This document shows positions 854 to 19,865 of a DNA stretch of 48,403 nt, piece by piece. The translations under genes were made by a program, and so were the position numbers. Within the stretch, counting starts at the first letter, position 1. The number at the start of each line of letters is the position of its first letter. Location: contig JALEZQ010000017.1 in NCBI GenBank assembly GCA_022772475.1, positions 1 to 48,403 of the forward strand. Direction: 5' to 3'. Below the pieces are notes generated by a model. It was not told the origin of the DNA and did not search any database. It saw nothing but the letters and a program-made list of their open reading frames with translations. The stretch comes from Bacteroidales bacterium (GTDB lineage Bacteria; Bacteroidota; Bacteroidia; Bacteroidales; Bacteroidaceae).

Positions 854-892
854 TAAAAAAGGACGTGCATACCGGGGTGGGCACGCACGTCC
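854..892 (-). terminator. Terminator of the FAS1-SusC/SusD operon
   Basis: On the minus strand an 8-bp stem (GGACGTGC paired with GCACGTCC) is followed by TTTTTTATT. It lies about 36 bases past the stop codon of the last SusD gene, as expected for an intrinsic terminator. Confidence 0.85.
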
Positions 893-927
893 TAAAGGAG
901 TTGTTCGTCTAAGGTATGGACCTTGGA

Positions 928-3150
928 TTAGTAGGCAGGATTCTGGAGGTAACGGTTCTCCTTCACGCTGAGGCGCTGGTAGAGGCCATTATCCTTCTGG
1001 GTGGGATCCTCATAGGGCTTCAGACCGAGGTTGCGGCGGGCAATAAGCCAAGCGAACCAGCTGGTACCGTTGTTGGCGGGACCAAATTCAGCTCTATCCT
1101 TGTGGTTGGCAATACGGTCAAGGTCGAAGAAACGGCTGCCCTGGAAGGCCATCTCAAGGGCCATCTCGTCGGCGATGAGGGTCTCGACGGCGTTGATCTG
1201 CTCCTGAAGGTTCTCGGGGGTGACGGGGTCGAGGGCGGGCTCGGGATCGGGCTCGGGCTGAGGCTCTGAGGGCGTGGTTCCTTCATCCTGGGCTTCAACG
1301 TCGGTAGAGGGCTGTTCCTCATCCTCGGGAACGGCGATTTCTGCATCGAGAGCGGCAATGAGCTCATCTGCGGTAACACCCTCGACTATGTCCATGCGGA
1401 CACGCTCGTCGTACATACGCTGACCGACGATCTTGGCATAGGTATAGACGGTGTCGATTTCGCTGCTGTAACCGCTACCGAGTTCGTGTACGCCACAGAC
1501 GGCATCCCAGTGCGACTCTTCGAAGTCGAGCCAGGGCAGGTCGCTCTTGGCGCGACGCATTTCGTCGATACCGATATAGTCGCAACCATCGGGCTGGTTG
1601 ACGAGGTAGGGGAATACGTGACCATCGCGTACGGAGTCGTTGGCGATGGTGGGCATGGTCTTGCTGGTCAGACCGTCGCGGAGGACGCCGAAGGCATGGC
1701 GGGGATAGCCGGCACGGTTGAGGGCTTCAGCAAAGCGGAGGTAAACCTGATTGACGCGGTAGATGGGGAAGCTGTAGTTGAACTTGAAGCTGCCGGTACC
1801 TACACCGTTGTTTTCAGTGGTATTGTTGCCATTGAAAGCACGGGTGCCAATGAAGGGGATGATGCCTTCGGTGGTCTGCACATAGTTGCGGATACCTTCG
1901 ATACGGCAGTCGCCACAGTCTTCGGCATACTTAATCTGGTTGATGTCTTCATTGGTCTCGTGGTTCTCGTTTTTCTCGGTGTTGACGCAGAAACGATAGA
2001 CCTGAGCCTTGGACAGACTTTCATAGGCGGGCGAGAGGGTCAGCTGACGGTTGCGGTAGTTGGCCGTAACGCTGACTTTACCTGTGGTCGAAACAGTGGC
2101 ATCTTCGGAGGTAGAGGTGTTGGAGGTTGATTTTGCATCGAAGCCATAAATCTGGGCAGGACGCATGAGCACGCTACCAAAGTTGGAGCTGGCAGAGGAG
2201 AGCATGGCGGTGATGACCTGACCATTGCCGGTGATGTTGGCACTGTTGTCGTTGAAGGGTTCAGCCCAATTGCCCTTCTGGGCGAAGAAACTTTCCTCAT
2301 TGTTGATCTGGATGCGATGTGCACTGGCGCGGTTGCCGGCGGTCATACGACGCGCGTTGACACGCGACTCTTCTTCCAAATACTGGTAATAGAGGAAGGC
2401 GGCATTTTGGTAGTCGGCCTTGCTGGCTCCACGGAGCAGATAGAGGTCGGCCATGACCAGACGACCGGGGAAGACCATCATCTGGGCGGGCATGGTGATG
2501 GCGCCATTGTTGAGGGTACCGTAGCTGGGGGTGCCGTAGCCCTGTGCGTACTGATAGTTGTAAGCACGGTCGAGGCCGTCCTCCATGAGGTAGCCCAGGA
2601 GGGTTTCGGCGGTGGCCCACTTGCCACCCTCAGGGTTGGTTTCCCAACCGGTGCCGGCGTTGGCCACGGGCTTGTTGATGTAGGGCACGGTGCCGTAGTT
2701 CTGGACGAGCTGCATGTAGGCCCAGGCGCGGATGAACTGTACCTGCGCAAACTCAGTACGCATGTAGTAGATGCTGTTCTTCTGCGCCATGGTATCTACG
2801 GCTGCAAGATAGTAGTTGCACTGGTTGATAACCTTGTAGTAGGCAGCACGGCTGACGAGGCCATTGTCGGCATCGGCCACGGGCTCGAAGTTGACGATGG
2901 CGGACACCGTGTCGCTGACATATTCGGTGGTCTTCACCAGGTCACTGCGCATGTCGGCAAGGAGGGTGTTGTTTTCTACCATATCCTGCACGTTGGAGAG
3001 GATACCGAAGTAGAAGCTGACCGTATCGCGGCCGGTGAAGCCTTCGGCATAACGATCGACATCCGGTGTGAGCATGTCCTCACAAGAGGTCGTGGCCATG
3101 CCCAGGCTGAGGAGACCGGCGAACAATCCTATAATCGATTTCTTTTTCAT
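928..3150 (-). CDS. SusD/RagB-like outer-membrane lipoprotein (second pair)
   Basis: This is the surface lipoprotein partner of the SusC protein encoded just upstream; SusD proteins form the lid that captures ligand over the TonB-dependent barrel. The start at 3150 (MKKKSIIGLF) gives a clean lipoprotein signal ending in TTSC; an upstream in-frame ATG at 3171 would add seven residues. The SusD repeat-rich N-terminal half and the conserved C-terminal end (EMAFQGSRFFDLDRI) are both visible. About 740 residues is long for the family. Part of the excess is an acidic, proline-rich stretch of about 36 residues (encoded at roughly 1220-1329), placed directly before the conserved C-terminal helix and rich in E, D, P and T. 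The ligand cannot be told from sequence. Confidence 0.9.
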   Translation of the reverse strand: MKKKSIIGLFAGLLSLGMATTSCEDMLTPDVDRYAEGFTGRDTVSFYFGILSNVQDMVENNTLLADMRSDLVKTTEYVSDTVSAIVNFEPVADADNGLVSRAAYYKVINQCNYYLAAVDTMAQKNSIYYMRTEFAQVQFIRAWAYMQLVQNYGTVPYINKPVANAGTGWETNPEGGKWATAETLLGYLMEDGLDRAYNYQYAQGYGTPSYGTLNNGAITMPAQMMVFPGRLVMADLYLLRGASKADYQNAAFLYYQYLEEESRVNARRMTAGNRASAHRIQINNEESFFAQKGNWAEPFNDNSANITGNGQVITAMLSSASSNFGSVLMRPAQIYGFDAKSTSNTSTSEDATVSTTGKVSVTANYRNRQLTLSPAYESLSKAQVYRFCVNTEKNENHETNEDINQIKYAEDCGDCRIEGIRNYVQTTEGIIPFIGTRAFNGNNTTENNGVGTGSFKFNYSFPIYRVNQVYLRFAEALNRAGYPRHAFGVLRDGLTSKTMPTIANDSVRDGHVFPYLVNQPDGCDYIGIDEMRRAKSDLPWLDFEESHWDAVCGVHELGSGYSSEIDTVYTYAKIVGQRMYDERVRMDIVEGVTADELIAALDAEIAVPEDEEQPSTDVEAQDEGTTPSEPQPEPDPEPALDPVTPENLQEQINAVETLIADEMALEMAFQGSRFFDLDRIANHKDRAEFGPANNGTSWFAWLIARRNLGLKPYEDPTQKDNGLYQRLSVKENRYLQNPAY

Positions 3151-3174
3151 TGCGTTGATTCTTTTAAGCATTAG

Positions 3175-3222
3175 GCGAAGGGGAACCGGGCTGTCCGGTG
3201 GGGGAGGTCCGTCCCCCTTCGC
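3175..3222 (-). promoter_or_regulatory. Hairpin between the susC-like and susD-like genes
   Basis: Nine-base arms GCGAAGGGG and CCCCTTCGC enclose about 30 bases, in the gap between the SusC stop and the SusD start at 3150. There is no T-tract, so it is probably not a terminator. It could stabilise or process the mRNA and so set different SusC and SusD levels; this role is inferred. Confidence 0.5.
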
Positions 3223-3244
3223 ATTAAGGCGTAGATTAGCGGGA

Positions 3245-6200
3245 TTACAAGTTGATGGTTACACCGAGATTGTAGTTGCGTGTCTGGTTGAGGAAGCCAG
3301 CGTCGATTCCCTGCTGGAGCACGCCATTGCCGACCGTCGTTTCGGGGTCGTTGCCGGTGTACTTGGAGACGGTGAACACGTTGTTTGCTTCACCCCAAAC
3401 GGAGATACCCTGCAGCCAGCTGAGGTTGACGGGCACCTTGTAGGTGAGGCGTACCTTCTTCAACTTAAGATACGAGCCATCTTCAATCCAACGGTCGGAG
3501 AAGCGTTCGTTGTTGACCCACTCGTCATTGTCGCTTGCCATAGCACGCGGCATGTCGGTTACCTGACCGTCATACTTCCAGCGGTTAACCACGGCCGTGG
3601 TCTGGTTGTAGATGCCATTGGCACCTTCGAGCTGCGAGCGCTGGTAGTTGAAGACGTCGTTACCGAGGCTGTACTTGAAGTCGGCAGCCAGCGTAAAGCC
3701 CTTCCATGTGAGCGAGGTATAGAAGTTGCCGTAGATGTCGGGGTTGGGGTCGCCAATCTTTACCATATCGGCCTCGTTGATCCAACCGTCGCCGTTCTGG
3801 TCAACGAAGTGGACGTCACCGGCCTGGAAGTTGCGGTAGGGCTGAGATACGAGACCCGTCGGGTAACGCAGGTAGCCGTACTTGCCGGCCTGTGAGGCGT
3901 CAGCATCGCTGGCGAAGACGCCGGCGGTCTGATAACCGTAGAAGACGCCTGCGGCCTGTCCTACAGCGGTGAGGATGTTGTTCTGACCGTAAACGGACGA
4001 GGTATAGCCCTGGATGGTCTTGGCAGAGGCAAGATCTTTCTGGCCGTTGGCGTCGAGGGCGTAGGTGGTGATGAAGTTGTCGCTGGTAGCGGGCAGTTTG
4101 GTCACCTTGTTCTGGTAGTGGCCGATGCCAAAGCCAGCCTGCCACTTCCAGTCGCGGAGGTTGAGGAGCACCACGTTCATGTTACCCTCGATACCCCAGT
4201 TACGCAGGGCACCGTCGTTGGCCCACATGTACTTCAGACCCGTGATGTCGCTGACAGCCTTGCGGGTAAGGAGGTTGGTGGTACGCGACCAGTAGTAGTC
4301 AACGCCGAGAGATAAGCGGTTGTTGAACAGGGCCGTCTGGAAACCGACGTTGAAGCGGTGGGTGGTTTCCCACTGAATCTTCGGGTTCTCGATGTTGGCC
4401 AGTTTCAGACCGGTGGCAATCTGGAGGAACTCGGCATTGGCGAAGTAGGTGCGGGCAGCGTAGTAATCTACGTTGTCGTTACCGCTCTCTTCATAACCGG
4501 CGAAGAGCTTCAGGTAGTTGACGGCGGGCACGTTGAACCACTTTTCAGAGGACATCAACCAGCCGAGCTGAACAGAGGGGAAGAGACCCCACTTCACGCC
4601 GGCGAGCTTGATACCGTCGTTGGCTTCCTTACCGAAACGCGAAGACGACTCGGCCGTCGTGGTCAGCGTGAGGAAGTACTTGTTCTGATAGTTATAGTCG
4701 GCATTGACATAGTATGCCAGGTTGACCCAACTGTCGTTCTGACCGCCATACTGCTTGTAGGACTGCGACATGCTCATGTTCGGCATCTTATCCTGGTCGT
4801 TGTTGTAGCCGAGGATGTTGCTGCTGTTATAGTTGAACGATGAGAGGCGGAAGCCGGCAAAGGCATTGAGGTGGTGTGCACCCAACTGACGGTTGTAGGT
4901 GATGCGGAAGTCGTTGAATACGGCGGTCTCCTTGCTGAACTGCGACTGGAGGACGCTCTTCACCGAACCGAGACCTTCTACCGCTTTCGAGGGAGTACCA
5001 TCGTTAGGCAGATAATACTTCTCGTTGTAGCGGTTCATGATGTAGCTGAAACGGTCCGAGAGGGTGAGGTAACGGTTGATGGTGTACTTGGGAGCCACGT
5101 TGATGGCAAACTGGGTCTGCTCAAGGTAGTTCTTGTTGTCACCGTCACCGTTGGTGAGAATCCAATAGGGATTCACATAGCCGGAGTAACCGAATTTTTC
5201 AGCGAAGCGATAGGGGTTGTTATCGCTGTTGTAGTCCTTACCCGAATAGACCTTGTCCGTATGACCTACAGAGAGGCCGTTGGCGGGATCATAGAATACG
5301 TAGTGGGCATAGGGGCTGATGAAAGGCGACTGGATGAGCGAGAGGACATTGGGCGACGAGATGTTCGACGCAGAATAGTCGGGAGCCCAACCGTTGTCGC
5401 GGAGGTTATAGGCATTGCGGACATAGGAGATGTCGAAGCCCGTGGTAAGGCCCTTGAACATGGTGATGTCCGAATTGAAACGGATGTTCAGACGGTTGAA
5501 GTCGTTGGTGCGTGCCACGGCCTCGCCCTGAGTGTAGCCCAGCGAAAGGTTGTACATGGCCACGTCGTCACCACCGGCTACGCTCACGCGATAGTTCTGC
5601 GAGAAGCCCGTGTGATACATGCCATCCTGCCAGTCGGTCTCGTTGTGGTAGATGGGATAGAGCTTGTAGTTGGGGTCGTCGTTCATGAAGGCGGGAACGG
5701 AGGTATTCTTGTCGAAATACTCCTTACCTGTGAGCGTCGTACCAAGGAACTCGCTGACATAGTTGCGATACTGGCTGGCGTTCATCATCTTAACTGACGA
5801 GGGAATCTCTTCGATGCCGCCCCAGGCGCGGATGTTGATTCGCGTCACAAGGCTCTTACCACGCTTGGTGGTAATCTCGATGACACCGTTGCCACCCTTT
5901 GCACCATAGAGAGCGGTACCGTTTTTGATTATCTTGACATCTTCAATGTCTTCGGTATCAATGAGGCTGAAAAGGTTGGCTACGTAGCCGGTGTGGAGGG
6001 CGTTGCGGTCGTACTGCATGTCCCACTCTACGCCATCGACGATGACGAGGGGCTGCGAATTGGTGTTGAGAGAGTTCAGACCATTGATAAACATGGCTGC
6101 GCCCTGACCGGCAAAGCCGCCGCGGTTGATGGTGCGGATGCTGGAGGCCAGTTTGGTTTCGACGTCATTCTCAATGGTAATGGCGCTGCTCTCATTAACA

Positions 6201-6649
6201 TTCATCGAGGGCTGGCTATAGATGGAGGTTCCATCGGCATAGAGGCTCTTGACGGCGGTGGTATAGAGAGAAGTGTTCTGGTCGGTTGCACCCTTAATGG
6301 CGATATGTCCGGGGTTGTAGTCGGGCAGAGCGACATAGAGGGAGGTGACGAAGTCGGGCACCTTGATGGTATAAGCACCCTGATCGTCAGTAAGGGCGGT
6401 ATAGAAGCGGTTGTTCAAGGCCTGTACCTTGGCACCTGCAAGAGGTTGCTTGGTGGCTGCATCGTAGATGAAACCTTTGACCTCCTTCATAACATACTTA
6501 GCGGCAGGTCTAGCCTTGGTCGCGACTGTGGAGCGTGCTTGTGCACCATCAGTCTGTGCCGAAAGGACACAGGTGCCGGAGAGCATGAAGAGGCATACAC
6601 CAGCACGGAGAGCGCCCTGCAACATTTGGTTCTTAATATTCTTACTCAT
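3245..6649 (-). CDS. SusC/RagA-like TonB-dependent receptor (second pair)
   Basis: A TonB-dependent outer-membrane transporter that should import the ligand caught by the SusD protein encoded after it. From the start at 6649 (MSKNIKNQML) it has a signal peptide ending near VLSAQ, a carboxypeptidase-regulatory-like beta-sandwich (VKGFIYDAATKQPLAGAKV), a plug domain with PLVIVDGVEWDM and NGVIEITTKRGK, and a long beta-barrel with the usual late motif DVHFVDQNGDGWINEADM. The plug is unusual: the common phrase around LQGxVAGVxI is replaced by a segment reading TKLASSIRTINRGGFAGQ. It starts about 29 bases after the preceding FAS1 gene, consistent with one operon. An in-frame ATG at 6682 would overlap that gene by four bases. 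Confidence 0.93.
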   Translation of the reverse strand: MSKNIKNQMLQGALRAGVCLFMLSGTCVLSAQTDGAQARSTVATKARPAAKYVMKEVKGFIYDAATKQPLAGAKVQALNNRFYTALTDDQGAYTIKVPDFVTSLYVALPDYNPGHIAIKGATDQNTSLYTTAVKSLYADGTSIYSQPSMNVNESSAITIENDVETKLASSIRTINRGGFAGQGAAMFINGLNSLNTNSQPLVIVDGVEWDMQYDRNALHTGYVANLFSLIDTEDIEDVKIIKNGTALYGAKGGNGVIEITTKRGKSLVTRINIRAWGGIEEIPSSVKMMNASQYRNYVSEFLGTTLTGKEYFDKNTSVPAFMNDDPNYKLYPIYHNETDWQDGMYHTGFSQNYRVSVAGGDDVAMYNLSLGYTQGEAVARTNDFNRLNIRFNSDITMFKGLTTGFDISYVRNAYNLRDNGWAPDYSASNISSPNVLSLIQSPFISPYAHYVFYDPANGLSVGHTDKVYSGKDYNSDNNPYRFAEKFGYSGYVNPYWILTNGDGDNKNYLEQTQFAINVAPKYTINRYLTLSDRFSYIMNRYNEKYYLPNDGTPSKAVEGLGSVKSVLQSQFSKETAVFNDFRITYNRQLGAHHLNAFAGFRLSSFNYNSSNILGYNNDQDKMPNMSMSQSYKQYGGQNDSWVNLAYYVNADYNYQNKYFLTLTTTAESSSRFGKEANDGIKLAGVKWGLFPSVQLGWLMSSEKWFNVPAVNYLKLFAGYEESGNDNVDYYAARTYFANAEFLQIATGLKLANIENPKIQWETTHRFNVGFQTALFNNRLSLGVDYYWSRTTNLLTRKAVSDITGLKYMWANDGALRNWGIEGNMNVVLLNLRDWKWQAGFGIGHYQNKVTKLPATSDNFITTYALDANGQKDLASAKTIQGYTSSVYGQNNILTAVGQAAGVFYGYQTAGVFASDADASQAGKYGYLRYPTGLVSQPYRNFQAGDVHFVDQNGDGWINEADMVKIGDPNPDIYGNFYTSLTWKGFTLAADFKYSLGNDVFNYQRSQLEGANGIYNQTTAVVNRWKYDGQVTDMPRAMASDNDEWVNNERFSDRWIEDGSYLKLKKVRLTYKVPVNLSWLQGISVWGEANNVFTVSKYTGNDPETTVGNGVLQQGIDAGFLNQTRNYNLGVTINL

Positions 6650-6678
6650 GTGTTCGAATTTTAAAGTTAACAAGATGC

Positions 6679-8535
6679 TCATTCGCGCACAGGCTCTACG
6701 ATAACGGACAGGATACTGAGTGCCTTGACCTTACCGGTGCGCTGATAGCTATAGGGCAGGGAGATACGGAGACGGGGGAAACTGTTCTTGCCGGAAGGCA
6801 GACCTTTATAGGTGTAGGGGAACTTGTAGTTTTCCCACAGCGTGATGCGCTCGGCTTTATCCTGGTTGACGGCTACACCCTTCACCTGACTGAGGACCTT
6901 GCCATCATCGTCGTAGAGGGCAGCGTCAAACTTGGGCTTCTCAATGATGGGCTGACCTTTGTCGTCCAGACGGATATTGCTCGTACAGGTCTTGTTGGGG
7001 AGCATGATGATGGAGATGTTGTAGTTGGTACTGTAGATGTTGTTCAACTGGAAGTCAATCATCATCGTGCTGTTACCCGATACGGGGAAGTAGAAGTAAG
7101 TGTTGTCGGGAATAAGGCCGCAGAGGTCGATAGAGTCGCGGGTATTGCCGTCCTCATCGGGCTCGGTCTGAAGCGTGTTGGCGCTGGTCAGGTCGATACG
7201 CTGTCCCCAGTCCTGAGTGGAGCCTTGTACGTCGCAAAGACCACCACGAGAAGCCTTGATCTCGCTGCGCTTTACCAGACCATAGGCAGGATCAATAGTG
7301 TACTCGGGAAGAGCGTAGATATAACCATTGGATGCTTTGATGGGGGAAAGACCGGCAAACATAGGATTGGCTTCACCGGGAGTAGCGTTGTACAGACAGA
7401 TGTTCTTCGTCGTGAAGACAGAGTCGCGAGTAAGGAACTCGTTGAAGACGGCTACGGAGTCGCGGCGCTTGTCTGCAGTGACTACTCGCGATACACTGAC
7501 GGTGGTGGTGGCGAGCAGGTCGTTGAGCATCTCACGCTGCTGGAGCGAGTCGATGGCATTCTGGTCGAGACGAAGAGCGTTAGCGCCTTTATAACTGAAG
7601 TCGTGCGAAGTACTGGAGTACTCGTAGTTGTAAGACTTCTTGAAGTTGTAGAGCGAAGCGATCTTATCCTTGGCGGTCGCGAGGGCTTCGTTGCTGGGGA
7701 AGAAGGAGATGCTCAAGCTGTCCTCATTGGAAAGAACCTTAAGGCTGGCATTGTTGATCATCTCGTTGTCGCTCGAATAAACAGAGTCAACATACTCAAT
7801 CTTGCCAAACTCGTTCATGGCACCAGGCGTGCTGGCAGATTCATTGAACGTGTATTTGCTGTAAGCATCAATCATGGCGAAGATGTCAGAGAATTCAGAG
7901 CGGACGGACAACAGGTCGTAGATGTTGTGCTCGTAAGTGGATTCACCATTGAGGAGATACAGCTGACCATTGGACGAGACGATGGCGCTACCTATAACGG
8001 GGGCACCATTGAAGGTGTGGTTTGACTGACTGAAGGCACATACTTTGCCATTCATCATACGCACATCCTTGTCAGCTGCGCTTCCCTGATTAAAGCGAGC
8101 CATGTGGTTGCGCACGAACTGCGAAGCAATCTGATAGTTCAGACGCATGGCTTCATTGACAGAAGCTGTGGCCGTTGCCTGACAGGTATCTGCGAAGAGC
8201 GAGTCGGCGCGATCGAGGATATCAAGATACTGCTTGGCATTGAACGTGCCGTTCTTGGGGAGCCAAACGGTCATCTCCTGATCGCCGTTGAGGAGACTGG
8301 CAAAGGTTTGCTTTTCGCCCTTGTCAATCTCAGAGTTCATCACCTTGGCACGGCGGAGAATCATGGCCACCGAATCAAGTTCACTGGTAGCTTCGATATT
8401 CTGCCAGATCGTATTCGCGCCGGATGCATCGCTGACGCGAATATCGAAGTGGTCGTCGGTACAAGCTGCAACCGTTGCAGCCAGTGCCGTGCAGAGCATG
8501 CCACCCTTTACAATATTCTGAAATGTCGTTTTCAT
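6679..8535 (-). CDS. FAS1 (fasciclin) domain lipoprotein, 618 aa
   Basis: A probable surface or periplasm-facing lipoprotein with fasciclin-like domains. The signal ends in TVAAC, giving lipid attachment at Cys25. Two FAS1 H1-type motifs are visible: MTVWLPKNGTFN near residues 88-99 and SISFFPSNEALATA near 275-288. Each FAS1-like unit is followed by a segment ending in a NGQLYLLNG- or NGYIYALP-like strand, as at the end of FAS1 domains. Roughly the last 170 residues form a separate beta-rich module with no family I can name. The domains are divergent from textbook FAS1 sequences. FAS1 domains usually mediate adhesion or protein-protein contacts; here the placement between two SusC/SusD pairs suggests an accessory to uptake or cell-surface assembly. 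Confidence 0.8.
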   Translation of the reverse strand: MKTTFQNIVKGGMLCTALAATVAACTDDHFDIRVSDASGANTIWQNIEATSELDSVAMILRRAKVMNSEIDKGEKQTFASLLNGDQEMTVWLPKNGTFNAKQYLDILDRADSLFADTCQATATASVNEAMRLNYQIASQFVRNHMARFNQGSAADKDVRMMNGKVCAFSQSNHTFNGAPVIGSAIVSSNGQLYLLNGESTYEHNIYDLLSVRSEFSDIFAMIDAYSKYTFNESASTPGAMNEFGKIEYVDSVYSSDNEMINNASLKVLSNEDSLSISFFPSNEALATAKDKIASLYNFKKSYNYEYSSTSHDFSYKGANALRLDQNAIDSLQQREMLNDLLATTTVSVSRVVTADKRRDSVAVFNEFLTRDSVFTTKNICLYNATPGEANPMFAGLSPIKASNGYIYALPEYTIDPAYGLVKRSEIKASRGGLCDVQGSTQDWGQRIDLTSANTLQTEPDEDGNTRDSIDLCGLIPDNTYFYFPVSGNSTMMIDFQLNNIYSTNYNISIIMLPNKTCTSNIRLDDKGQPIIEKPKFDAALYDDDGKVLSQVKGVAVNQDKAERITLWENYKFPYTYKGLPSGKNSFPRLRISLPYSYQRTGKVKALSILSVIVEPVRE

Positions 8536-8564
8536 TAGATTTAATTTTATTCTGTTTATGTAGA

Positions 8565-10685: not shown

Positions 10686-10712
10686 AGTTTGAGATTCTAC
10701 AATCTAAAGGGG

Positions 10713-12590
10713 TTAGTTCTTACTGTAGCGAGCCCAAACGGGGTTTTGTTTAAGATTACCACCATACTCTTCACCGTTGATCTTATACTCATCCATATGA
10801 ATGGGGTTGTACAGCGAGTACAACTGCTTCAGACGGTTGCGCACAGATGTGGAGAGCGTGATGTAGTTGGTCAGCACGTCAGTTACCGTTTCAGTGGTAG
10901 CCTCGCACTGACGCACGATATCGAACCAACGCTTGCCCTCGGCAACGAATTCACGCTGACGTTCGTTATATACGAGAGTCAGGAGCTCAGCAGCGGTCTT
11001 GGGGCTGTTGGTGTTGGTAGCATAATTTTCCTTCAGACGATCGCTGACCATCTGACCAGCACCTTCGGTACCGGTAGCTTTCAGGCGGGGATTACTGCGT
11101 TCAAAGAGCGTATTGGTCAGTTTGAAGCCTTCAGCCACGAGGGCATTGTCCGTAGCTTTGGTGGTGGAGGCTACCGAGCGTGCAATCGACTCTGCCTTGA
11201 TAAGGAAAATGTCTGCCAGACGATAGATGGGGAAGTTTTGGTCTGCTTGCTGGATGTACTCAAACTTACCACCCTGCGTAAGGTCTTCGAGGTCGTTGAT
11301 AGAAAGACTGGATATCAGGTTTTTGTGAACCTGAGGCAGAGAGGAGGAGTTGGGGTCATAGCGCAGCGTGTGGAGCAGACGGATGTCTGTCTTACCAAAG
11401 CCGCGATCCGGATCGTAAGAGGCGCTTGCAGAACCGGCCAAAAGGCTGCTTGCTACGAGCGATGCCGTGTTGAGCGAGTTACCGCTGGGGCTGGAGCAAT
11501 ACGATTGGAGCGTCGTATTGGTCACACTCTTGTTGGCATCATACTTCAGTTCGAAGATGGCTTCTGTGGCATTGTCCTTGCCCCAAATCGTAGAATATAC
11601 GTCGTCACTGACATTTTCGTTGTTCAGCGACTTCATACGATAGAGATAGGGATAATCAAGATCCGTGTCCTGACCGATTTGTATCTCATTTTCAGCCAAC
11701 TTTCTGTCATACTCGCTCTGGAACCATTCAAGGATGTCATCACAATACTTGATAGACTGCTTGAAGCATTCGGTAGCCAGATTGTTGCACTCGGTAGCAG
11801 TCAGCGTATCGCCTTCTGCCGAAACGACAACATCAGGTTTGGGGTTTGCTGTCGAGCTCTTGAGCATGCAGCCTCTCCACAGATACATATCTGCGAGAAG
11901 TGCCTGTACGCCGCGACGAGTGAAACGGCCGCAGTTTTCGGAAGAGCTACCGAAGTTATTGGCGGCATAGGGAAGTACGGCTTCAACGTCGGCAATAAGT
12001 TTGCCCATAATATTGACACCCTGAGTCTGACCATCAACGCGGGCACGTGCCTCTTCGTCGGTACGAACGGCTTTCGTCACGTAGGGTACGTCACGATAGG
12101 CGCGGACGAGGTAGAAATAGTAGAGCGCGCGGAGGGCAGTGATTTCGGCCTTGATGGGAAGCCAGTCGCTCTGACGGAAACTGGGATCCACCTCATTGCC
12201 GGGCTGCGTCATGGCTTCGCCCTGTTCGAGGACGAGGTTGCAATAGTTGATGCCCGTATAGAAGTCGTTCCACTTGAAGATATTCTCCGTGGGCATCAGG
12301 ATGGCTTGCTGTGCGTGCTTGATGCCATCCTGGGTCTGGTCGAAGAGCGTGAGGTTGTCCGAACGCACTTCACCCCAGTAGAAAATCTTGTTGGTGCAGC
12401 CATTGCCAGCCAACTGACGGTAGCAGGCTGCACGGACGCCCTGAAGGTCGGTTTCTGTTTTCCAGAAGTCGTCCTCAGTGATACGGTCAGAGGGGAGCAC
12501 CGTCAGGAAGTCGTCGCACGAGGTGAGACTGACGCCTGCCAACATAAGGCCGCTGACCAGGAATTTATTGATAAACTTATTTGTTTTCAT
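10713..12590 (-). CDS. SusD/RagB-like outer-membrane lipoprotein (first pair)
   Basis: The lipoprotein signal ends in SLTSC and is followed by DDFLTVLPSDRITEDDFW, a very typical SusD N-terminus. The C-terminal phrase VYNERQREFVAEGKRWFDIV is the conserved end helix of the family. Length (625 aa) is within the usual SusD range. It starts 11 bases after the SusC gene, the standard tight SusC-SusD arrangement, so the two should form one complex. No carbohydrate-active enzyme is encoded in the operon, so a glycan ligand should not be assumed. Confidence 0.93.
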   Translation of the reverse strand: MKTNKFINKFLVSGLMLAGVSLTSCDDFLTVLPSDRITEDDFWKTETDLQGVRAACYRQLAGNGCTNKIFYWGEVRSDNLTLFDQTQDGIKHAQQAILMPTENIFKWNDFYTGINYCNLVLEQGEAMTQPGNEVDPSFRQSDWLPIKAEITALRALYYFYLVRAYRDVPYVTKAVRTDEEARARVDGQTQGVNIMGKLIADVEAVLPYAANNFGSSSENCGRFTRRGVQALLADMYLWRGCMLKSSTANPKPDVVVSAEGDTLTATECNNLATECFKQSIKYCDDILEWFQSEYDRKLAENEIQIGQDTDLDYPYLYRMKSLNNENVSDDVYSTIWGKDNATEAIFELKYDANKSVTNTTLQSYCSSPSGNSLNTASLVASSLLAGSASASYDPDRGFGKTDIRLLHTLRYDPNSSSLPQVHKNLISSLSINDLEDLTQGGKFEYIQQADQNFPIYRLADIFLIKAESIARSVASTTKATDNALVAEGFKLTNTLFERSNPRLKATGTEGAGQMVSDRLKENYATNTNSPKTAAELLTLVYNERQREFVAEGKRWFDIVRQCEATTETVTDVLTNYITLSTSVRNRLKQLYSLYNPIHMDEYKINGEEYGGNLKQNPVWARYSKN

Positions 12591-12601
12591 ATCTGAATGT
12601 C

Positions 12602-15600
12602 TTAGAATCCAATATTCAAACTGAGCGTGAACGAACGCGAGCGAGGCGTCTGGCTCGAGTCGGTACAGGGGCTGAAGCCGTACTGCGAGTGGTCGGGGTC
12701 GGTACCTTTGTACTTGGTCCAGAAGATAAGGTTGTTACCCGAAGCATTCAGACGGAGCGAAGAGATACCGTAGCGCTTGAGTTTCTCGCTGGGGAAGCTG
12801 TAACCAATCTGGAAGTACTGGAAGCGGAGGTAGTCGCCTTTCTCCACATAGCGGTCGGAGATAAGGGCGTTGTAGTTGGCACCACCGGAAACCTTCGTGC
12901 TGAGTGCGCGAGGAATTTCGGTCTCCTGACCGTTGGTACGCCAGCGGTGGTTGACAGCAGCGCTCTGGTTCTTGTTCGTACGCATATCCTCTGCATACAT
13001 GCGGGCGAGGTTGATGATCTTGTTACCGATACGGAAGTTGAAGTTGGTCTTCAGCGTCCAACGGCCGTAGTTGAAGTCGATACCGAAACCACCACTGACT
13101 TTGGGGTTGGAGCTACCGAGGTAAACGATATCGAGTTCGTCAATCTGACCATCGTAGTTGACATCTTCATAGATGACGTCACCACCTTCAAACTTGTGGT
13201 TGATACCACCGTAGTTGTAAACCATCTGGAGGGGGTTACCGTTCTTGTCATATACTACGTTACCCTTAGAGTCGCGTACGATAGGAGCGGTCTTGCCGGT
13301 AGCGGCAGCGGTGTTGCGAGAATATGTACCGTCAGCATTGGGCTCGGACATATAGAACTCGTTCTTCGTGTCGTCGATGAAGTAGCCGTTGTGCTTATAG
13401 TCGTAAGCATAAACGCCTTTGTAGCGGAAACCGTAGATACCACCGAGGGCGTGGCCAATCTGTACGCGCTTGAGCACCTGTTCGTTACCACCGGAGTAGT
13501 CGAAGTCGGAGTTGTTGGCTGCGAGCACAGAGGCATCCATCTCGGTCACCGTGTTGATATTCTGAGCGAAGTTGAAGCGGAAGACGGTGCTGAACTTACC
13601 CACCTTGAAGAGTTCGCGGGTGTTCACATAGAGTTCCCAGCCTTCGTTTTCCATCTTACCGACGTTTGCAGCGCTGAGCGAGGTGTAACCGCTTGTTGAG
13701 GGTACGCTTACCGACGAGTTGATAAGGTCGGTGGTGTACTTGTGGTAGATGTTCAGGTCAAACTTGATAAGGTCTTCGAAGAGGTTGAGGTTGAAACCGA
13801 GGTTCCAAGACTTCGTCTTTTCCCAGCGGATGTTGGTGAGACGAAGGTTGGTGGGCTTCATGGCCGTCGTACCGTTATAAGAGTTGTAGGTACCATACTG
13901 GTTGTAGATGAGACCTTCGCCGAAGTTGGCCAAACCGGTGATACCGTAGCCGGGACGGAAGGCGAGCATGCTGACCACCTTCTTGAGGGGTTCAAAGAAC
14001 GGTTCGTCGCTGATGTTCCAACGAGCGGAGACACCGGGGAAGAAGCCCCACTTATGACCGTCACCAAACTTGGTGCTACCATCGCCGCGGAGGGTAAGGG
14101 TCAGCGAGTACTTCTCGTTGAAGGCGTAGTGTGCGCTACCCGTGAGGGCCATCGTGTGGCTCTTACCGGTAGAGGTGCCGAGGCCGGTGAGGTAACCGGG
14201 AGCCGTAGGATCGGTGATGCCACCGCTGATACCGGACGAGGAGAGGTACTGGTTGGTCGAGGTGGAAGCCGTCGATTCGATGCTGGCGAGGACCTGAAGG
14301 GCATGACGCTCGTCAGAGAAGGCGGGCTTGAAGAGCAACGAGTGCTTGTTCTTGAACGTAAAGTTCTTGTACTCGTTGTTCGACGTGCGGTCAATCTGGT
14401 CGGACCACATCTTCCAGGTTTCGAGGTTGTGGGGATAGTAGCTGTTCTTGGTTTCGGTGTAGGCATTGATATAAACCTCACCGGTATAGTTCAGCTGCGT
14501 TTCGTTATCCTCTTTGCCAAGGAACTTGTACTCAACCGAGAACTTGGGTGTGATGGTGTAGGTTGACCACTTACGCCAAGCATACTCAGCGATAGCCACA
14601 GGGTTACCATTGGTTACCATGTCGCTGAGATAGTAGGACGAAAGGTTGCTGGTGTTGGACACCATACCGGTGGTCGTGGCAGCCTTGGGCATAAGGTAAT
14701 ATTCGCCCGTGTCGAAGTACTGACCTCTTTCGCGGTCATACTCCCAGCGAGTTACAGACATGTTAGGCATGGCCTTGTAGGCGTAGCCCATCAGACCGTC
14801 GTCGTAGTTCTTGTTCTGGTTGGTGTAAACCAGCGAGAAGTTTGACGAGAACTTGATACGGTCAGAAACGTAGTAGTCGAGAGCCAGACGCGTAGTGAAG
14901 CGGTCGAGTGTCTGCTTGATGACGGTACCGATTTCGTGGTCGTAGCTTGCCGATACGCGGAAGGTAGCCTTGTCACCACCACCCGAGAGGCTGACGCTGT
15001 AGTTGTGAGTCTGACCGAACTGCGTTACTTCGTCGATCCAGTCGGTATTCTTATTATAGTTGTAACGATAGGCCGTGTAGGTAGGAAGGTCCTGCAGCTC
15101 GACGATCTGGTCGGCGGGGTTACCGGCTTCGGGGTTGGGGTTGTGATAAGCCTGCTGGAGGAAGATTTTGTATTCGTCACCAGTGAGCATCTTCATACCC
15201 TCGGGCTGCCAAGAGCCGGAGAAGCGGTAGCTAAAGTTGACGCGGGTCTTACCGCGGGCACCACGACGTGTCTTGATTTCGATAACACCGTTAGAACCAC
15301 GGCTACCCCAGATAGCGGTAGCGGCAGCGTCCTTCAGTACGTTAATCGACTGAATGTCTTCGGGGTTAACCTGCAGAAGGCTGGCGAACTTTTCCTCGTT
15401 CATATCGTTGGCATCAAACTCGTCGGTATCATAGTCTTCAAGGATATCGCCATCGACTACGATAAGGGGGTTCTGGTCACCGTTGATGGTGGTCACACCA
15501 CGCAGACGCATGGAGGTACCCGAACCAAGGTTACCGGAGTTTGACACGATGTCAAGACCTGCAATCTGTCCCTGAAGGGCTTCACCTGCCGTTTCGAAGG

Positions 15601-16030
15601 AGAGACCTTGCATTTCATCCATATTAAGGCTCTGCTGAGCCACGGAGATTTCGCGCTCGGGAATGACCATACCGTTCGATTTGGTCTTACGTGTTACCGT
15701 CTTGACCGCTTCGCTGAAGGTACTGTTGTCTACGAGTTCGATACGGAATTTGGTCTGAGTACCAATGGCTTGTCTGACGGTACGATAGCCGATGTACGAC
15801 ACCTGGAGGGTGTTGTTCGGGTTCTTGATGGTCAGAGAGAAGTTACCACTGGCATCCGTTTGTGTTGCTGAAACCGCACGATTTGACTTGTCGATTTCAG
15901 CGACGTTTGCCATGATGACAGGACCTTTGTCAGTGGAGCTCCACACGTGTCCTGTGATGCGCTTCTGAGCGAACGCGACAGCGCAGCAGAAGCACAAGGC
16001 AAGAGTCAAAAGATATTTTATGCTCTTCAT
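12602..16030 (-). CDS. SusC/RagA-like TonB-dependent receptor (first pair)
   Basis: A TonB-dependent outer-membrane transporter. It has a signal peptide (LCFCCAVAFA), a carboxypeptidase-regulatory-like domain (RITGHVWSSTDKGPVIMANV) and a classic SusC plug: GEALQGQIAGLDIVS, then MRLRGVTTINGDQNPLIVVD and GSRGSNGVIEIKTRRG. The barrel carries the late signature DVIYEDVNYDGQIDELD and ends in an aromatic residue (LNIGF). At 1142 residues it is slightly longer than many SusC proteins. It lies 11 bases after the four-unit FAS1 gene and 11 bases before its SusD gene, so translation of the three is probably coupled. Unlike the second SusC in the operon its plug follows the family consensus. Confidence 0.95.
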   Translation of the reverse strand: MKSIKYLLTLALCFCCAVAFAQKRITGHVWSSTDKGPVIMANVAEIDKSNRAVSATQTDASGNFSLTIKNPNNTLQVSYIGYRTVRQAIGTQTKFRIELVDNSTFSEAVKTVTRKTKSNGMVIPEREISVAQQSLNMDEMQGLSFETAGEALQGQIAGLDIVSNSGNLGSGTSMRLRGVTTINGDQNPLIVVDGDILEDYDTDEFDANDMNEEKFASLLQVNPEDIQSINVLKDAAATAIWGSRGSNGVIEIKTRRGARGKTRVNFSYRFSGSWQPEGMKMLTGDEYKIFLQQAYHNPNPEAGNPADQIVELQDLPTYTAYRYNYNKNTDWIDEVTQFGQTHNYSVSLSGGGDKATFRVSASYDHEIGTVIKQTLDRFTTRLALDYYVSDRIKFSSNFSLVYTNQNKNYDDGLMGYAYKAMPNMSVTRWEYDRERGQYFDTGEYYLMPKAATTTGMVSNTSNLSSYYLSDMVTNGNPVAIAEYAWRKWSTYTITPKFSVEYKFLGKEDNETQLNYTGEVYINAYTETKNSYYPHNLETWKMWSDQIDRTSNNEYKNFTFKNKHSLLFKPAFSDERHALQVLASIESTASTSTNQYLSSSGISGGITDPTAPGYLTGLGTSTGKSHTMALTGSAHYAFNEKYSLTLTLRGDGSTKFGDGHKWGFFPGVSARWNISDEPFFEPLKKVVSMLAFRPGYGITGLANFGEGLIYNQYGTYNSYNGTTAMKPTNLRLTNIRWEKTKSWNLGFNLNLFEDLIKFDLNIYHKYTTDLINSSVSVPSTSGYTSLSAANVGKMENEGWELYVNTRELFKVGKFSTVFRFNFAQNINTVTEMDASVLAANNSDFDYSGGNEQVLKRVQIGHALGGIYGFRYKGVYAYDYKHNGYFIDDTKNEFYMSEPNADGTYSRNTAAATGKTAPIVRDSKGNVVYDKNGNPLQMVYNYGGINHKFEGGDVIYEDVNYDGQIDELDIVYLGSSNPKVSGGFGIDFNYGRWTLKTNFNFRIGNKIINLARMYAEDMRTNKNQSAAVNHRWRTNGQETEIPRALSTKVSGGANYNALISDRYVEKGDYLRFQYFQIGYSFPSEKLKRYGISSLRLNASGNNLIFWTKYKGTDPDHSQYGFSPCTDSSQTPRSRSFTLSLNIGF

Positions 16031-16041
16031 AATAATAGATT

Positions 16042-19000
16042 TTACTTAATTCTGTACTTCTTCACAAAGCTTGCTGCCTCGGCGGGCGTTGACCATGCTT
16101 TATCGAAGCGTTCCGTGCTGTACTTCTTGTCGAAGAGAAGGTAGTTGTCAATCTGGTGAACAGTCACGAACGAGGAGTTCTTGATGGAGGTAGCGGTGTT
16201 AGCCGGCGACTTGTCGAAGTCGGCATCGCGTGCCATCAGGTTGTAGGGAGCGATGACGTGAGCGGCCACCTTGCTTTCGTCCACAGAGCCATCGGCATTC
16301 TGAGCCACAGCGTCATAGAGGGTGATGGCGCCATTGGTCTGCTTGACGTTCAGATTGAGGTAAACGTTGTTGATGTTATCGATACAAGAAGTCTGGTAAG
16401 CTTCGTTGCTGGCAACATTATCTACGAAGAGCGATTCATCCTGGAAGTGGTACTTCAGGAAGTTCATCAGCAAGGTAATCATGGCTTTCACCTTCACCTG
16501 TTCGGCTTCGGGCAGCACGCCGGTGCTCTGACCTTCTTCATCCTGAATCATGTGGTTTTCCATGTATTCAATGATCTCATCGTAGGTCATAAGACCGCGC
16601 TGGCGAGCTTCCTGGACCTTCTCATTCGTAGGAATGTAAACCGTGTAGCGGTAGTTGTTGAAGAAGCGGACAACCTTTTCATTGAAAGGAGGATAGATAC
16701 CCTCATCGTTGAAGATGCGGTACTTCTTGACCTCGGCTTTCCACAGGTCGTTGTCGGCCTTCATTTCTTCGGTCTGGAAACCGGCGGCGATGAGCTGGTC
16801 GGCCGAGAAGTTGGCCTGGCAGAGCTGGTAGAACTCGGAGAAGTTGTCCTGATTCTCACGCATGATGGCATAGACCGTCTTGGTGGTAGGCTGCATCGGA
16901 CGGTTGATAAGGTAGGTCATACCGTTACCGTAACCACCATTCTGCTCGGCGGTCATGTTGTAGCCTTCGATAACTTCGCAATCGTGGTCGTTATCGGCAT
17001 ACTCGTCGTTCTTGAGCTGAAGCTGATAGCCACCATCCACAATCATACCAACGCCTGAGGCCTCGGGTGCCACTTTGTGTGCCACATAGACGGGAGCACC
17101 GCCACGCGAGAGGAAGTAGGTACGCTTGCTGTTGACACCTTCGTTATTATCAGCATCTTCCGTATCGTGTACCACGATGTGCTGGTCCATCATGTCGATG
17201 AGCAGCGTACGCTTCACGAGACCGGAACCCGTGGTCAGGGCGCCATTAGGCTCGGACACGTTGGCGGCGTTACCACCGGTGGTCGAGGTCTTGTCGCCGG
17301 CCTGCGGACCTACGCTGATGTCATAGCGGTAAGCCTGTGCACGCACGGGGATAACGGCGTTGGATGTATTCTTATAGGTAAAGCGCCAATACTTATACTG
17401 GCTGGCCTGAAGCACACCCTTGGCGATGGACATAGGATCTACATAACCATACAGACCGAGTGCATCGTCCGTCGGAACGAAGAAGGAGAAGCGCGACTGC
17501 ATAGCCTTGAGGTAGGTGGAGTAGTACTTCTTCAGCGGGGCGTTGTTGTAAGAGGTACCCTCGATGAAGTTGTCGTCAGCACGAGCTACCGACTTCATCA
17601 CCTGCGTGTTGGCGCTGTAGAGCACCGGACCGATAACGGCGGCGTAGTCGGCAGGCGTGATCACGGAGTTCATCACATATACCACACCGTTGTTGGCCAA
17701 CAGACAGGTGTCGATGCCTGCTTTGTAGGCATCCTGGCTGGGATAGTTGTCAGCGGGGAACATCTGGTCCTGAGCATCGTTCATGATGGTCAGATACTTG
17801 CTGGGCACGCTCTCAATGAAGCTGTCCTTCAGCAGGTTGTTGATCAGAGCCTGAATGATGTCGAGAGGAATCTGGTAGATGTTGGTGATGAGGTTGTCCC
17901 AGTTACCGGGCTCGTTGGGCACGTCGGGGAGGGCATAGCGGTTCATCAGACCGCGACCACCACCTTCCCAGAAGTACTTGGCGAGGGCTTCGTCAGTAGG
18001 TACGAAGAAGGCGCCCATGTCGCGCTCCATCGGCGTGGAGCTGCTGATGGCATAGGCATTCCATCCCGGGTCATAGGTAAGGAAGGGGAAGGCACCGAGC
18101 GATTTCTTGTCGGGGCCCTGGGTCATGGCACCATTGCTCGAACGCGAAGAGATATACTTCTTCTCGAACACGGAGTCGTTGCCTATATCATGGAGGGCAC
18201 GGTAGTCGGCGGTGAGTGAAGCGCTGTAGTAGGGTGCGCTGAAGCGGTCGAGCAGACGGCTAAAGAGCTGCGTCTTAGGATTCTGACGGATACACTCGGC
18301 CATGTTGGGCGGCGTAACGAGCACCTTGTCCAAGATATTGAAGTAACCGTTCATACAGGTTACGTCCTGCTTGACAATCTGGGCATCGTAAACGTAAGCA
18401 CGCTTACCACCGGCAGCACCGTTAAGCCAGGGCTTTTCGCCCTTCTTTTCAAGATTAAGAACAAAACTGATATCTTCGTGCGTAATATCCTTGGCCTTCA
18501 TCTGCTCTTCGAGGAAGTGAATCATCGGAGAGGAGGAAGCGTCAAGCGCCATGAGGATACCCTTGGCACCTTCATGGTTGTACTGATCCCAGAAACGCTT
18601 GTCACCCGTTGCGTTGCCCTCGCTGTCTGTGGTAGGAACGTTCAGGTTTACAGGAAGATCCTTTGCTTCCCAGAAGGGCACAGTGTCAACGGCAGAAGCA
18701 GCGGTGCTACGACGCATCGTCAGGTCGCCGCCATCAGAAGAGTAGGTCAACATCTCGAGCACGTCAGCATTGTTAAGCATGCTGCCATAGAAAAGCATTG
18801 CTTTCTGTGCCTGAGTCAACTGAGAATACGAGCGGACAGGATTGCCTTTGGCATCCTTCCACGTTGTTGTAGCGAAGAACTTTTCGAAGGCCGAGTCGGG
18901 CGCGACGAAAAGCGTCTTACTACCAGTCTTAGACAGTACATCCTTGTACTCCAGGTCGTCAATCAACTGTACGGTGTAGTTGAATTGACTGGCTTTCAAC

Positions 19001-19152
19001 TCGTCATAAATACTCCCTTTCAAGAAACTGGGCATGGTCTCGTCGAGATCATAATCGTCTGAACAGGAGTAAGTAAGAGCGCAGGTCGAAAGCAGGCACA
19101 TTGCACCGAGCAATGATTTGCCCATTCTGCTAAAACGGTTTTTCATACGCAC
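16042..19152 (-). CDS. Large lipoprotein with four FAS1-like units, 1036 aa
   Basis: First gene of the operon. The lipobox is LTYSC (Cys30); the start at 19152 (MRMKNRF) is used, with a second ATG two codons later. Four H1-type FAS1 motifs can be read: TLFVAPDSAFEKFF (about 80-93), GAFFVPTDEALAKYF (380-394), FSFFVPTDDALGLY (556-569) and YTVYIPTNEKVQEA (836-849). End strands of the FAS1 fold follow, such as NGYFNILDKVLVTP and NGVVYVMNSVITP, and a YH motif (LKYHFQDESLFVDN) lies in the fourth unit. Several units hold large inserts. Four FAS1 units in one Bacteroidales lipoprotein, translated 11 bases ahead of a SusC, suggests a stalk-like or adhesive partner of the transporter. The function itself is unknown. 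Confidence 0.85.
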   Translation of the reverse strand: MRMKNRFSRMGKSLLGAMCLLSTCALTYSCSDDYDLDETMPSFLKGSIYDELKASQFNYTVQLIDDLEYKDVLSKTGSKTLFVAPDSAFEKFFATTTWKDAKGNPVRSYSQLTQAQKAMLFYGSMLNNADVLEMLTYSSDGGDLTMRRSTAASAVDTVPFWEAKDLPVNLNVPTTDSEGNATGDKRFWDQYNHEGAKGILMALDASSSPMIHFLEEQMKAKDITHEDISFVLNLEKKGEKPWLNGAAGGKRAYVYDAQIVKQDVTCMNGYFNILDKVLVTPPNMAECIRQNPKTQLFSRLLDRFSAPYYSASLTADYRALHDIGNDSVFEKKYISSRSSNGAMTQGPDKKSLGAFPFLTYDPGWNAYAISSSTPMERDMGAFFVPTDEALAKYFWEGGGRGLMNRYALPDVPNEPGNWDNLITNIYQIPLDIIQALINNLLKDSFIESVPSKYLTIMNDAQDQMFPADNYPSQDAYKAGIDTCLLANNGVVYVMNSVITPADYAAVIGPVLYSANTQVMKSVARADDNFIEGTSYNNAPLKKYYSTYLKAMQSRFSFFVPTDDALGLYGYVDPMSIAKGVLQASQYKYWRFTYKNTSNAVIPVRAQAYRYDISVGPQAGDKTSTTGGNAANVSEPNGALTTGSGLVKRTLLIDMMDQHIVVHDTEDADNNEGVNSKRTYFLSRGGAPVYVAHKVAPEASGVGMIVDGGYQLQLKNDEYADNDHDCEVIEGYNMTAEQNGGYGNGMTYLINRPMQPTTKTVYAIMRENQDNFSEFYQLCQANFSADQLIAAGFQTEEMKADNDLWKAEVKKYRIFNDEGIYPPFNEKVVRFFNNYRYTVYIPTNEKVQEARQRGLMTYDEIIEYMENHMIQDEEGQSTGVLPEAEQVKVKAMITLLMNFLKYHFQDESLFVDNVASNEAYQTSCIDNINNVYLNLNVKQTNGAITLYDAVAQNADGSVDESKVAAHVIAPYNLMARDADFDKSPANTATSIKNSSFVTVHQIDNYLLFDKKYSTERFDKAWSTPAEAASFVKKYRIK

Positions 19153-19214: not shown

Positions 19215-19250
19215 CAAAATTAATAGAATTTTGTAATCTGAGCATACAAA
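19215..19250 (-). promoter_or_regulatory. Promoter of the FAS1-SusC/SusD operon
   Basis: On the minus strand TAATTTTG (19222-19215) fits the Bacteroidota -7 element TAnnTTTG, and TTTG (19250-19247) is a possible -33 element. The spacing of 24 bases is a little longer than the usual 19-21. It implies a leader of about 55 bases before the start at 19152. Confidence 0.5.
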
Positions 19251-19829: not shown

Positions 19830-19865
19830 CTGTAAGCGTTACAGGAAAATCTGTAACGCTTACAG
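19830..19865. promoter_or_regulatory. Double palindrome, candidate operator pair or hairpin
   Basis: Two 15-bp units, CTGTAAGCGTTACAG and CTGTAACGCTTACAG, start 21 bp apart. Each is itself a palindrome (CTGTAA, 3 bases, TTACAG), and the two are reverse complements, giving a perfect 15-bp stem with a GAAAAT loop. Two dyads two helical turns apart look like sites for a dimeric regulator; a transcript hairpin followed by GATTTTCTG is the alternative. Confidence 0.5.

Follow-up and report, generated by a model that had tools for sequence, protein, structure and literature searches.

Organization of the seven-gene cassette

The stretch of DNA analysed here (the window; 48,403 nucleotides, contig JALEZQ010000017.1 of the Bacteroidales assembly GCA_022772475.1, a gut bacterium of the family Bacteroidaceae) contains seven genes at positions 928-19146, all on the minus strand, which encode two SusC/SusD pairs and three FAS1-domain lipoproteins and are transcribed in the order FASa-SusC1-SusD1-FASb-FASc-SusC2-SusD2, with intergenic gaps of 11, 11, 27, 29, -4 and 73 bases. 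The genes of this cassette and its flanking signals are listed below; for SusC2, a start at 6649 is more likely than the called start at 6682.

16042..19146, minus strand: FASa, first gene, a lipoprotein of 1034 amino acids with four FAS1 domains
12602..16030, minus strand: SusC1, 1142 amino acids (TIGR04056 644.9 bits, TIGR04057 54.9 bits, both above cut-off)
10713..12590, minus strand: SusD1, 625 amino acids (PF07980 E 3.3e-15, PF14322 E 5.4e-13)
8565..10685, minus strand: FASb, a FAS1 lipoprotein of 706 amino acids (PF02469 E 2.4e-13)
6679..8535, minus strand: FASc, a lipoprotein of 618 amino acids with two FAS1 domains and a beta-sandwich like that of carbohydrate-binding modules (CBMs)
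3245..6682, minus strand: SusC2, 1145 amino acids as called (TIGR04056 560.1 bits, TIGR04057 32.8 bits)
928..3171, minus strand: SusD2, last gene, 747 amino acids (PF14322 E 4.7e-8, PF07980 E 2.7e-5, both above cut-off)
19215..19222, minus strand: TAnnTTTG box, 76 bp before the ATG of FASa
860..893, minus strand: terminator-like hairpin of 14 pairs followed by TTTTT, 34 bp past the SusD2 stop codon

The TAnnTTTG box, which we take to be a Bacteroidota-type -7 element, was not found within 200 bp before any of the six genes that follow FASa. Among L014-L030, each of the 14 additional same-genus loci whose FASa is intact has such a box 66-147 bp before FASa, and in the two other loci of the genus it lies at 76 bp (L050) and 228 bp (L049). 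Sigma-70-like promoters numbered 14 in the 20 kb scanned, against 14.4 in shuffled sequence, and terminator-like sites numbered 18 against 18.1 expected, so the hairpin after SusD2 is by itself weak evidence. The one-direction operon described in an earlier reading of the sequence without database searches (the sequence-only reading) is supported as one operon-like unit, the promoter-like box standing before FASa with no internal box, rather than separate units each with signals of their own. The description of the FAS1 proteins as lipoproteins also held: in all five lipoproteins of the cassette the signal peptide ends at a cysteine, with acidic residues after it.

Recurrence of the cassette

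Relatives of FASc were detected in 17 of the 24 same-genus genomes besides the window's own, including all seven of those that are at least 90 percent complete, and a single-sequence search with FASc matched 0/16 genomes of other families. Gene order was scored with hidden Markov models whose training set included most of the scored loci of the genus, family and order, and none of the loci from outside the order or of the 17 additional pairs described below. The 17 same-genus loci comprised ten with the full order, four without FASb and three that are cut by the end of the stretch or contig yet fit, and of 20 loci drawn from 14 genera of the family, the window's own genus among them, 15 had the full order, four were without FASb and one without FASb is cut.

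Regarding the order, cassettes were found in ten families besides the window's own, with the full order in L132, L134-L137, L139, L140, L144 and L147 and also in L138, which has an extra piece of FASb behind; FASb is missing in L143 and stands in front of FASa in L141 and L148, and L133, L142, L145 and L146 are cut and fit the order. On one contig (G414:C7; L130, L131, L149) two cassettes flank a gene for a protein of 1457 amino acids, one of them ending in FASa and the other in FASb; by eye this protein has the look of a hybrid regulator. Outside the order (labelled 'same class', two families) the complete gene order was present in 8/8 loci. Among GTDB contigs, whose loci overlap those of the genome searches so that the counts are not additive, SusC1 lies next to FASa in all 78 FASa loci, wherever they end beyond; Prevotellamassilia timonensis and Alloprevotella rava are among the species named, and identity to the nearest contig is 90 percent, which places the window in that part of the Bacteroidaceae.

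A FASa profile built on the genus matched 198 of 299 genomes of the family, in 17 of its 27 genera, and 17 of 294 genomes of the order (own included), and a wider FASa profile matched eight of 392 genomes of the phylum (own included). These tallies are lower bounds, because SusC1 proteins scoring at least 1074 bits occur in three genomes in which FASa is matched weakly or not at all; in one of these three, from the same family and with a weak FASa match, all seven genes are present with housekeeping genes around them. Genome G079, of the same genus and 99 percent complete, gave no FASa match. The gene order is thus conserved with little change both within the Bacteroidales and beyond them and is not peculiar to one strain, and the recurrence in distant relatives points to one old machine.

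In several genera of the family (G054, G100, G020, G066, G192 and G049) the cassette has genes resembling lpxD, lpxC and lpxA, named by eye, in its vicinity, which suggests an old shared chromosomal place.

Pairing of SusC1 and SusC2

Pairing was assessed with SusC1 and SusC2 profiles, not anchored on FAS1, in 13 genomes holding at least one cassette, with 58 or 61 candidates scored in the large genomes. Among the candidates scored, 34 SusC1 (at least 994 bits) and 34 SusC2 (at least 671 bits, the lowest being only 64-66 bits above the next rows, a SusC1 at 607 and another SusC at 606) were recovered, and all 34 were paired on the same strand at a distance of 6.4-9.8 kb. G414 has nine pairs, G417 six, G514 and G503 four each, G446 and G855 two each, and the other seven genomes one each.

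Seventeen new pairs were fetched regardless of FAS1, and FAS1-type genes were present in the slots of all of them: 15 have seven genes in the canonical slots, one (L259) has FASb in front and one (L253) is without FASb, and the first-slot protein of L262 has no FASa match and matches FASc with only 37 bits. When distances are compared across 52 cassettes, those of SusC1 correlate with those of SusC2 at r 0.97, the highest value of the pairs tested (others 0.71-0.93).

FAS1 lipoproteins

The predicted structure of FASa consists of four FAS1 domains and has the fold and domain number of TGFBIp and periostin, with an identity of about 11-18 percent in the alignments. The model of FASc has two FAS1 domains followed by a C-terminal CBM-like sandwich, whose fold matches include 7zvo, a CBM of Bacteroides thetaiotaomicron BT0996. 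PF02469 matches FASa and FASb and has no match on FASc; the FAS1 fold is thus found by model in FASa and FASc and, in FASb, by PF02469 and by profile A3, which against the PDB sequences recovered TGFBIp (E 2.4e-13). From its sequence, the first FAS1 domain of FASb is sure, the second FAS1 domain and the C-terminal domain being uncertain, and a profile comparison of the C-terminal domains of FASb and FASc (hhalign) gave no similarity. The sequence-only reading was correct in expecting a FAS1 fold and in counting four units in FASa and two in FASc, while it missed the CBM-like sandwich of FASc, and its second unit in FASb is uncertain.

The carotenoid-binding FAS1 proteins 8c18 and 22iy are also among the fold matches. 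FASb is the variable member of the cassette: some other cassettes lack it or have it at a different position. The window's own genome has a second, orphan FASb gene on contig C59 (L031, 421-2529), which shares 54 percent identity with the FASb gene of the operon.

SusC/SusD pairs and the TonB box

Both SusC proteins pass the full-length SusC model TIGR04056 (cut-off 368.25 bits), SusC1 with 644.9 and SusC2 with 560.1 bits, and for the signature TIGR04057 (cut-off 46.2 bits) SusC1 lies above the cut-off with 54.9 bits and SusC2 below it with 32.8 bits. A gene encoding a SusD lipoprotein directly follows each SusC gene, both SusD proteins passing a SusD model. The window's own genome contains five SusC above the cut-off, two of them in this operon. 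SusD2 carries an acidic, proline-rich insert (window positions ~1205-1320, residues ~618-655) that is poorly conserved in relatives.

Growth of B. thetaiotaomicron on levan is described as depending on the TonB box VDEVVV of a SusC (PMC7782687). In the aligned stretch, a strict TonB-box-like pattern was present in 27/38 ordinary SusC, 66/139 SusC1 and 0/85 SusC2, and a loose pattern in 30/38, 95/139 and 0/85, respectively. Unaligned patterns gave 25/38, 26/139 and 1/85 with six residues and 23/38, 58/139 and 1/85 with four residues, and an earlier, smaller run gave 12/15, 37/58 and 1/57. At the place of the TonB box SusC2 has a stretch of its own, LYs..f...Y, detected in 43/57 SusC2, 3/15 ordinary SusC and 1/58 SusC1. 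SusC2 thus appears, from sequence, to be without a recognisable TonB box, although it may have a non-canonical one; because this is a motif test only, SusC2 is assigned by family match and not as a proven TonB-dependent transporter.

Enzymes in the neighbourhood of the cassette

No gene encoding a carbohydrate-active enzyme was detected by Pfam inside the seven-gene operon, so the statement that glycoside hydrolases are lacking is true for positions 928-19152; upstream of this range, however, a GH43 gene adjoins:

20490..21620, minus strand: GH43-family glycoside hydrolase gene, 376 amino acids (PF04616 64.5 bits, cut-off 32.2)

It lies 1343 bases upstream of the operon and downstream of a tmRNA gene, and is likely separate from the operon. 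By eye it is of the same kind as L158:7453-8607, a gene beside the cassette of another family.

Plant-glycan enzymes, including GH43, GH51-type arabinofuranosidase, GH2, GH16, GH67, GH115, GH95 and PL11, were found beside nine of the 13 order-level cassettes sampled, for which 40 of 137 listed neighbouring open reading frames were chosen for Pfam; the regions without such enzymes among the sampled neighbours were G414:C7, G575, G381 and G602. Outside the order, 20 proteins picked by eye from five regions revealed GH2, GH28, GH88-type (GH88/105-type), GH95, GH106, PL11 and an esterase in four of the five regions, with none among the sampled neighbours of G855:C9, and one cassette there is accompanied by the rhamnose symporter RhaT and an aldolase/dehydrogenase. 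Ten neighbours from the 17 extra cassettes included one GH43 and one DUF4450. In L135, L136 and L137, from three families, the gene before FASa encodes a secreted protein with a glycosyl-hydrolase core (PF11790), an H-type lectin domain and a type IX sorting tail.

Since the cassette lies among plant-glycan enzymes in other families, its role would resemble that of the transport genes in a polysaccharide utilisation locus (PUL). The view that the operon is not a standard PUL was therefore half right, there being no enzyme inside it but enzymes beside the cassette in other families and the GH43 gene nearby in the window. Four genes that by eye had been taken for pectate lyases (L235:16916-18181, L235:18234-19901, L257:856-2520 and L267:17621-19294) had no Pfam match and were discarded.

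Proposed function and alternatives

SusCD importers are the main route to fibre feeding in Bacteroidota, and models depict them as homodimers equipped with a lid, binding proteins and enzymes. The seven genes described here are best read, with a probability of roughly 0.6, as encoding an outer-membrane import machine for large glycan fragments that combines two unlike SusCD pairs with FAS1 surface binders. In such a machine the two different SusCD pairs would work together, with SusC1 as a TonB-driven barrel and SusC2, without a recognisable TonB box, as the partner barrel. FASb and FASc would fill the place and the job of the surface glycan-binding proteins of ordinary loci, a FAS1 stalk bearing a CBM-like tip that catches the glycan, and the four-FAS1 rod of FASa may serve as a scaffold or an additional binder. 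The substrate would most likely be plant cell-wall oligosaccharides of the pectin or substituted xylan type, presumably in the window's genus as well, where the cassette seems to have been kept though linked enzymes are few.

A more specific version is offered only tentatively, the odds being clearly against it in its full form. It holds that the two barrels are obligate partners, a SusC1D1-SusC2D2 heterodimer replacing the usual SusC2D2-type homodimer; SusC2 would be TonB-blind, its plug held by the LYs..f...Y stretch, the FAS1 rods would bridge the barrels, and one barrel would receive and hold a large branched glycan that the other, TonB-driven barrel pulls in.

Several observations weigh against the import of plant glycans by such a machine. 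Regarding the enzymes, the selection of neighbours for scanning was made by eye; none of ten cassette neighbours scanned in the window's family is a plant-glycan enzyme, and no enzyme set linked to the cassette was seen in the window's genus, PL11 being absent in all nine same-genus genomes with zero to three GH43 each (for comparison, G417 has six PL11 matches and 23 GH43, and G637 one and 19). A fold shared with CBMs is no proof that the modelled tip of FASc binds sugar. Regarding the barrels, the SusC1 group fits the TonB box in only 66/139 (strict) or 95/139 (loose) and the SusC1 of the window matches none of three TonB-box patterns, so that for this copy the difference between SusC1 and SusC2 rests on its relatives; the nearest locus, moreover, is identical for SusC1 and SusC2 in only 35/52 cassettes.

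The scarcity of plant-glycan enzymes in the window's genus would also suit an importer of something other than glycans, at least in this genus, such as peptides, lipid or a FAS1-bound cofactor, with the enzyme neighbours elsewhere reflecting a different use. SusCD systems of the RagAB type are described as importing peptides (PMC11817032), and FAS1 proteins can bind carotenoids (8c18, 22iy); the CBM-like domain of FASc and the GH43 gene adjoining this very cassette speak for glycans instead, and this alternative is considered unlikely. An attachment machine, as put forward in the sequence-only reading, would use the FAS1 lipoproteins to capture a partner (host, matrix or another bacterium), with the SusCD pairs importing matter released there or acting as anchors. 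It would account for the resemblance of FASa to the adhesion proteins TGFBIp and periostin and for the lack of a linked enzyme set in the genus. It is less probable still, as both SusC are full-length members of the transporter family, the neighbourhoods of the cassette in other families are rich in enzymes and FASc has a CBM-like tip. The sequence-only reading's other suggestion, that the FAS1 proteins act as additional lids on the two transporters, may also apply.

Loci with two SusCD pairs are known, for example on one contig (PMC10199937), and the cassette might accordingly be two ordinary, independent SusCD loci in chance tandem with the FAS1 genes as passengers. Such a coincidence is set aside as close to refuted because SusC1 and SusC2 pair in 34/34, and the identical order in distant lineages and the lack of a promoter-like box before the inner genes also argue against it. 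The proximity of lpxD, lpxC and lpxA in several genomes of the family, the shared chromosomal place and the near-constant presence in the genus could indicate a machine of envelope biogenesis rather than an importer; with the cassette absent from many genomes, present in several copies elsewhere (nine in one genome) and accompanied by enzymes in other families, this is given hardly any weight.

Relation to known systems

The utilisomes are the nearest known machines. For levan and dextran, SusCD and surface lipoproteins are described as one stable complex (PMC7618045), and the levan and dextran utilisomes of B. thetaiotaomicron share with the cassette the SusCD core and the extra surface lipoproteins encoded alongside; they also have SusC dimers and a surface glycan-binding protein with a mobile sugar-binding tip (PMC7618045, PMC7782687). 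They differ in having one type of SusCD as a homodimer, a surface glycoside hydrolase and an Ig-like stalk (PMC7618045, PMC7782687), whereas the cassette combines two types of SusCD with FAS1 stalks, and its operon includes no enzyme gene. Likewise, Bt2261-64 of B. thetaiotaomicron is described with one SusCD pair (PMC7782687, PMC7618045).

Regarding FAS1 genes in such loci, a figure legend describes a hemicellulose-like PUL with enzymes in which a FAS1 gene accompanies SusD; the legend names neither two SusCD pairs nor three FAS1 genes, the comparison being by description only (PMC4891872). In a mussel symbiont, one contig carries two pairs of SusCD and a FAS1 gene is highly transcribed, with no statement that they are linked (PMC10199937). 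Human TGFBIp and periostin share four consecutive FAS1 domains and the fold with FASa; they are, however, eukaryotic secreted proteins with low identity to FASa and no known lipid anchor. BT1024-BT1030, the last genes of the rhamnogalacturonan II locus of B. thetaiotaomicron, may encode two SusC/SusD pairs along with three other lipoproteins and would then belong to this type of cassette. The rhamnogalacturonan II locus of this species is BT0977-BT1030 (PMC3243724). A possible link to the BAM complex of Bacteroidota, through SusCD or FAS1 subunits, was dropped, PMC12611786 presenting a FadL-like BamG and the surface lipoproteins BamH and BamM, with no occurrence of 'FAS1' or 'fasciclin' in its text.

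No paper on the seven-gene set was found in the literature searched, subscription papers and preprints lying mostly beyond that search. Two non-equivalent SusCD pairs with three FAS1 lipoproteins, in up to nine copies per genome, would be a second SusCD architecture. The cassette places bacterial FAS1 domains in a defined context and opens the way to tests of what the TonB box does in paired barrels, and it provides a sequence mark by which such loci can be recognised.

Other features of the window

Two TGTAASGSTTACA palindromes lie at 19831-19843 and 19852-19864, between the GH43 gene and FASa. With a looser pattern, 0.02 are expected in the window, and among 270 loci the pattern was found only in the window stretch and in L189 at 361-373, where the copy is intergenic and lies before another SusC of the same genome with similar surrounding sequence. 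A role of the twin palindrome as an operator of the operon was rejected, as none of the other cassettes examined has it in front of FASa and one copy is intergenic on another contig (L189).

Past the operon, at ~607-750, dispersed repeats of the form GACAAC...AACTTGTACAAC...GTTGTCGT recur in L189 at 1-190, before a SusC gene on another contig. The repeat-rich contig end also carries an identical hairpin, GTCGCGGCGTCGGCCGCGAC, twice, at 177-196 and 299-318.

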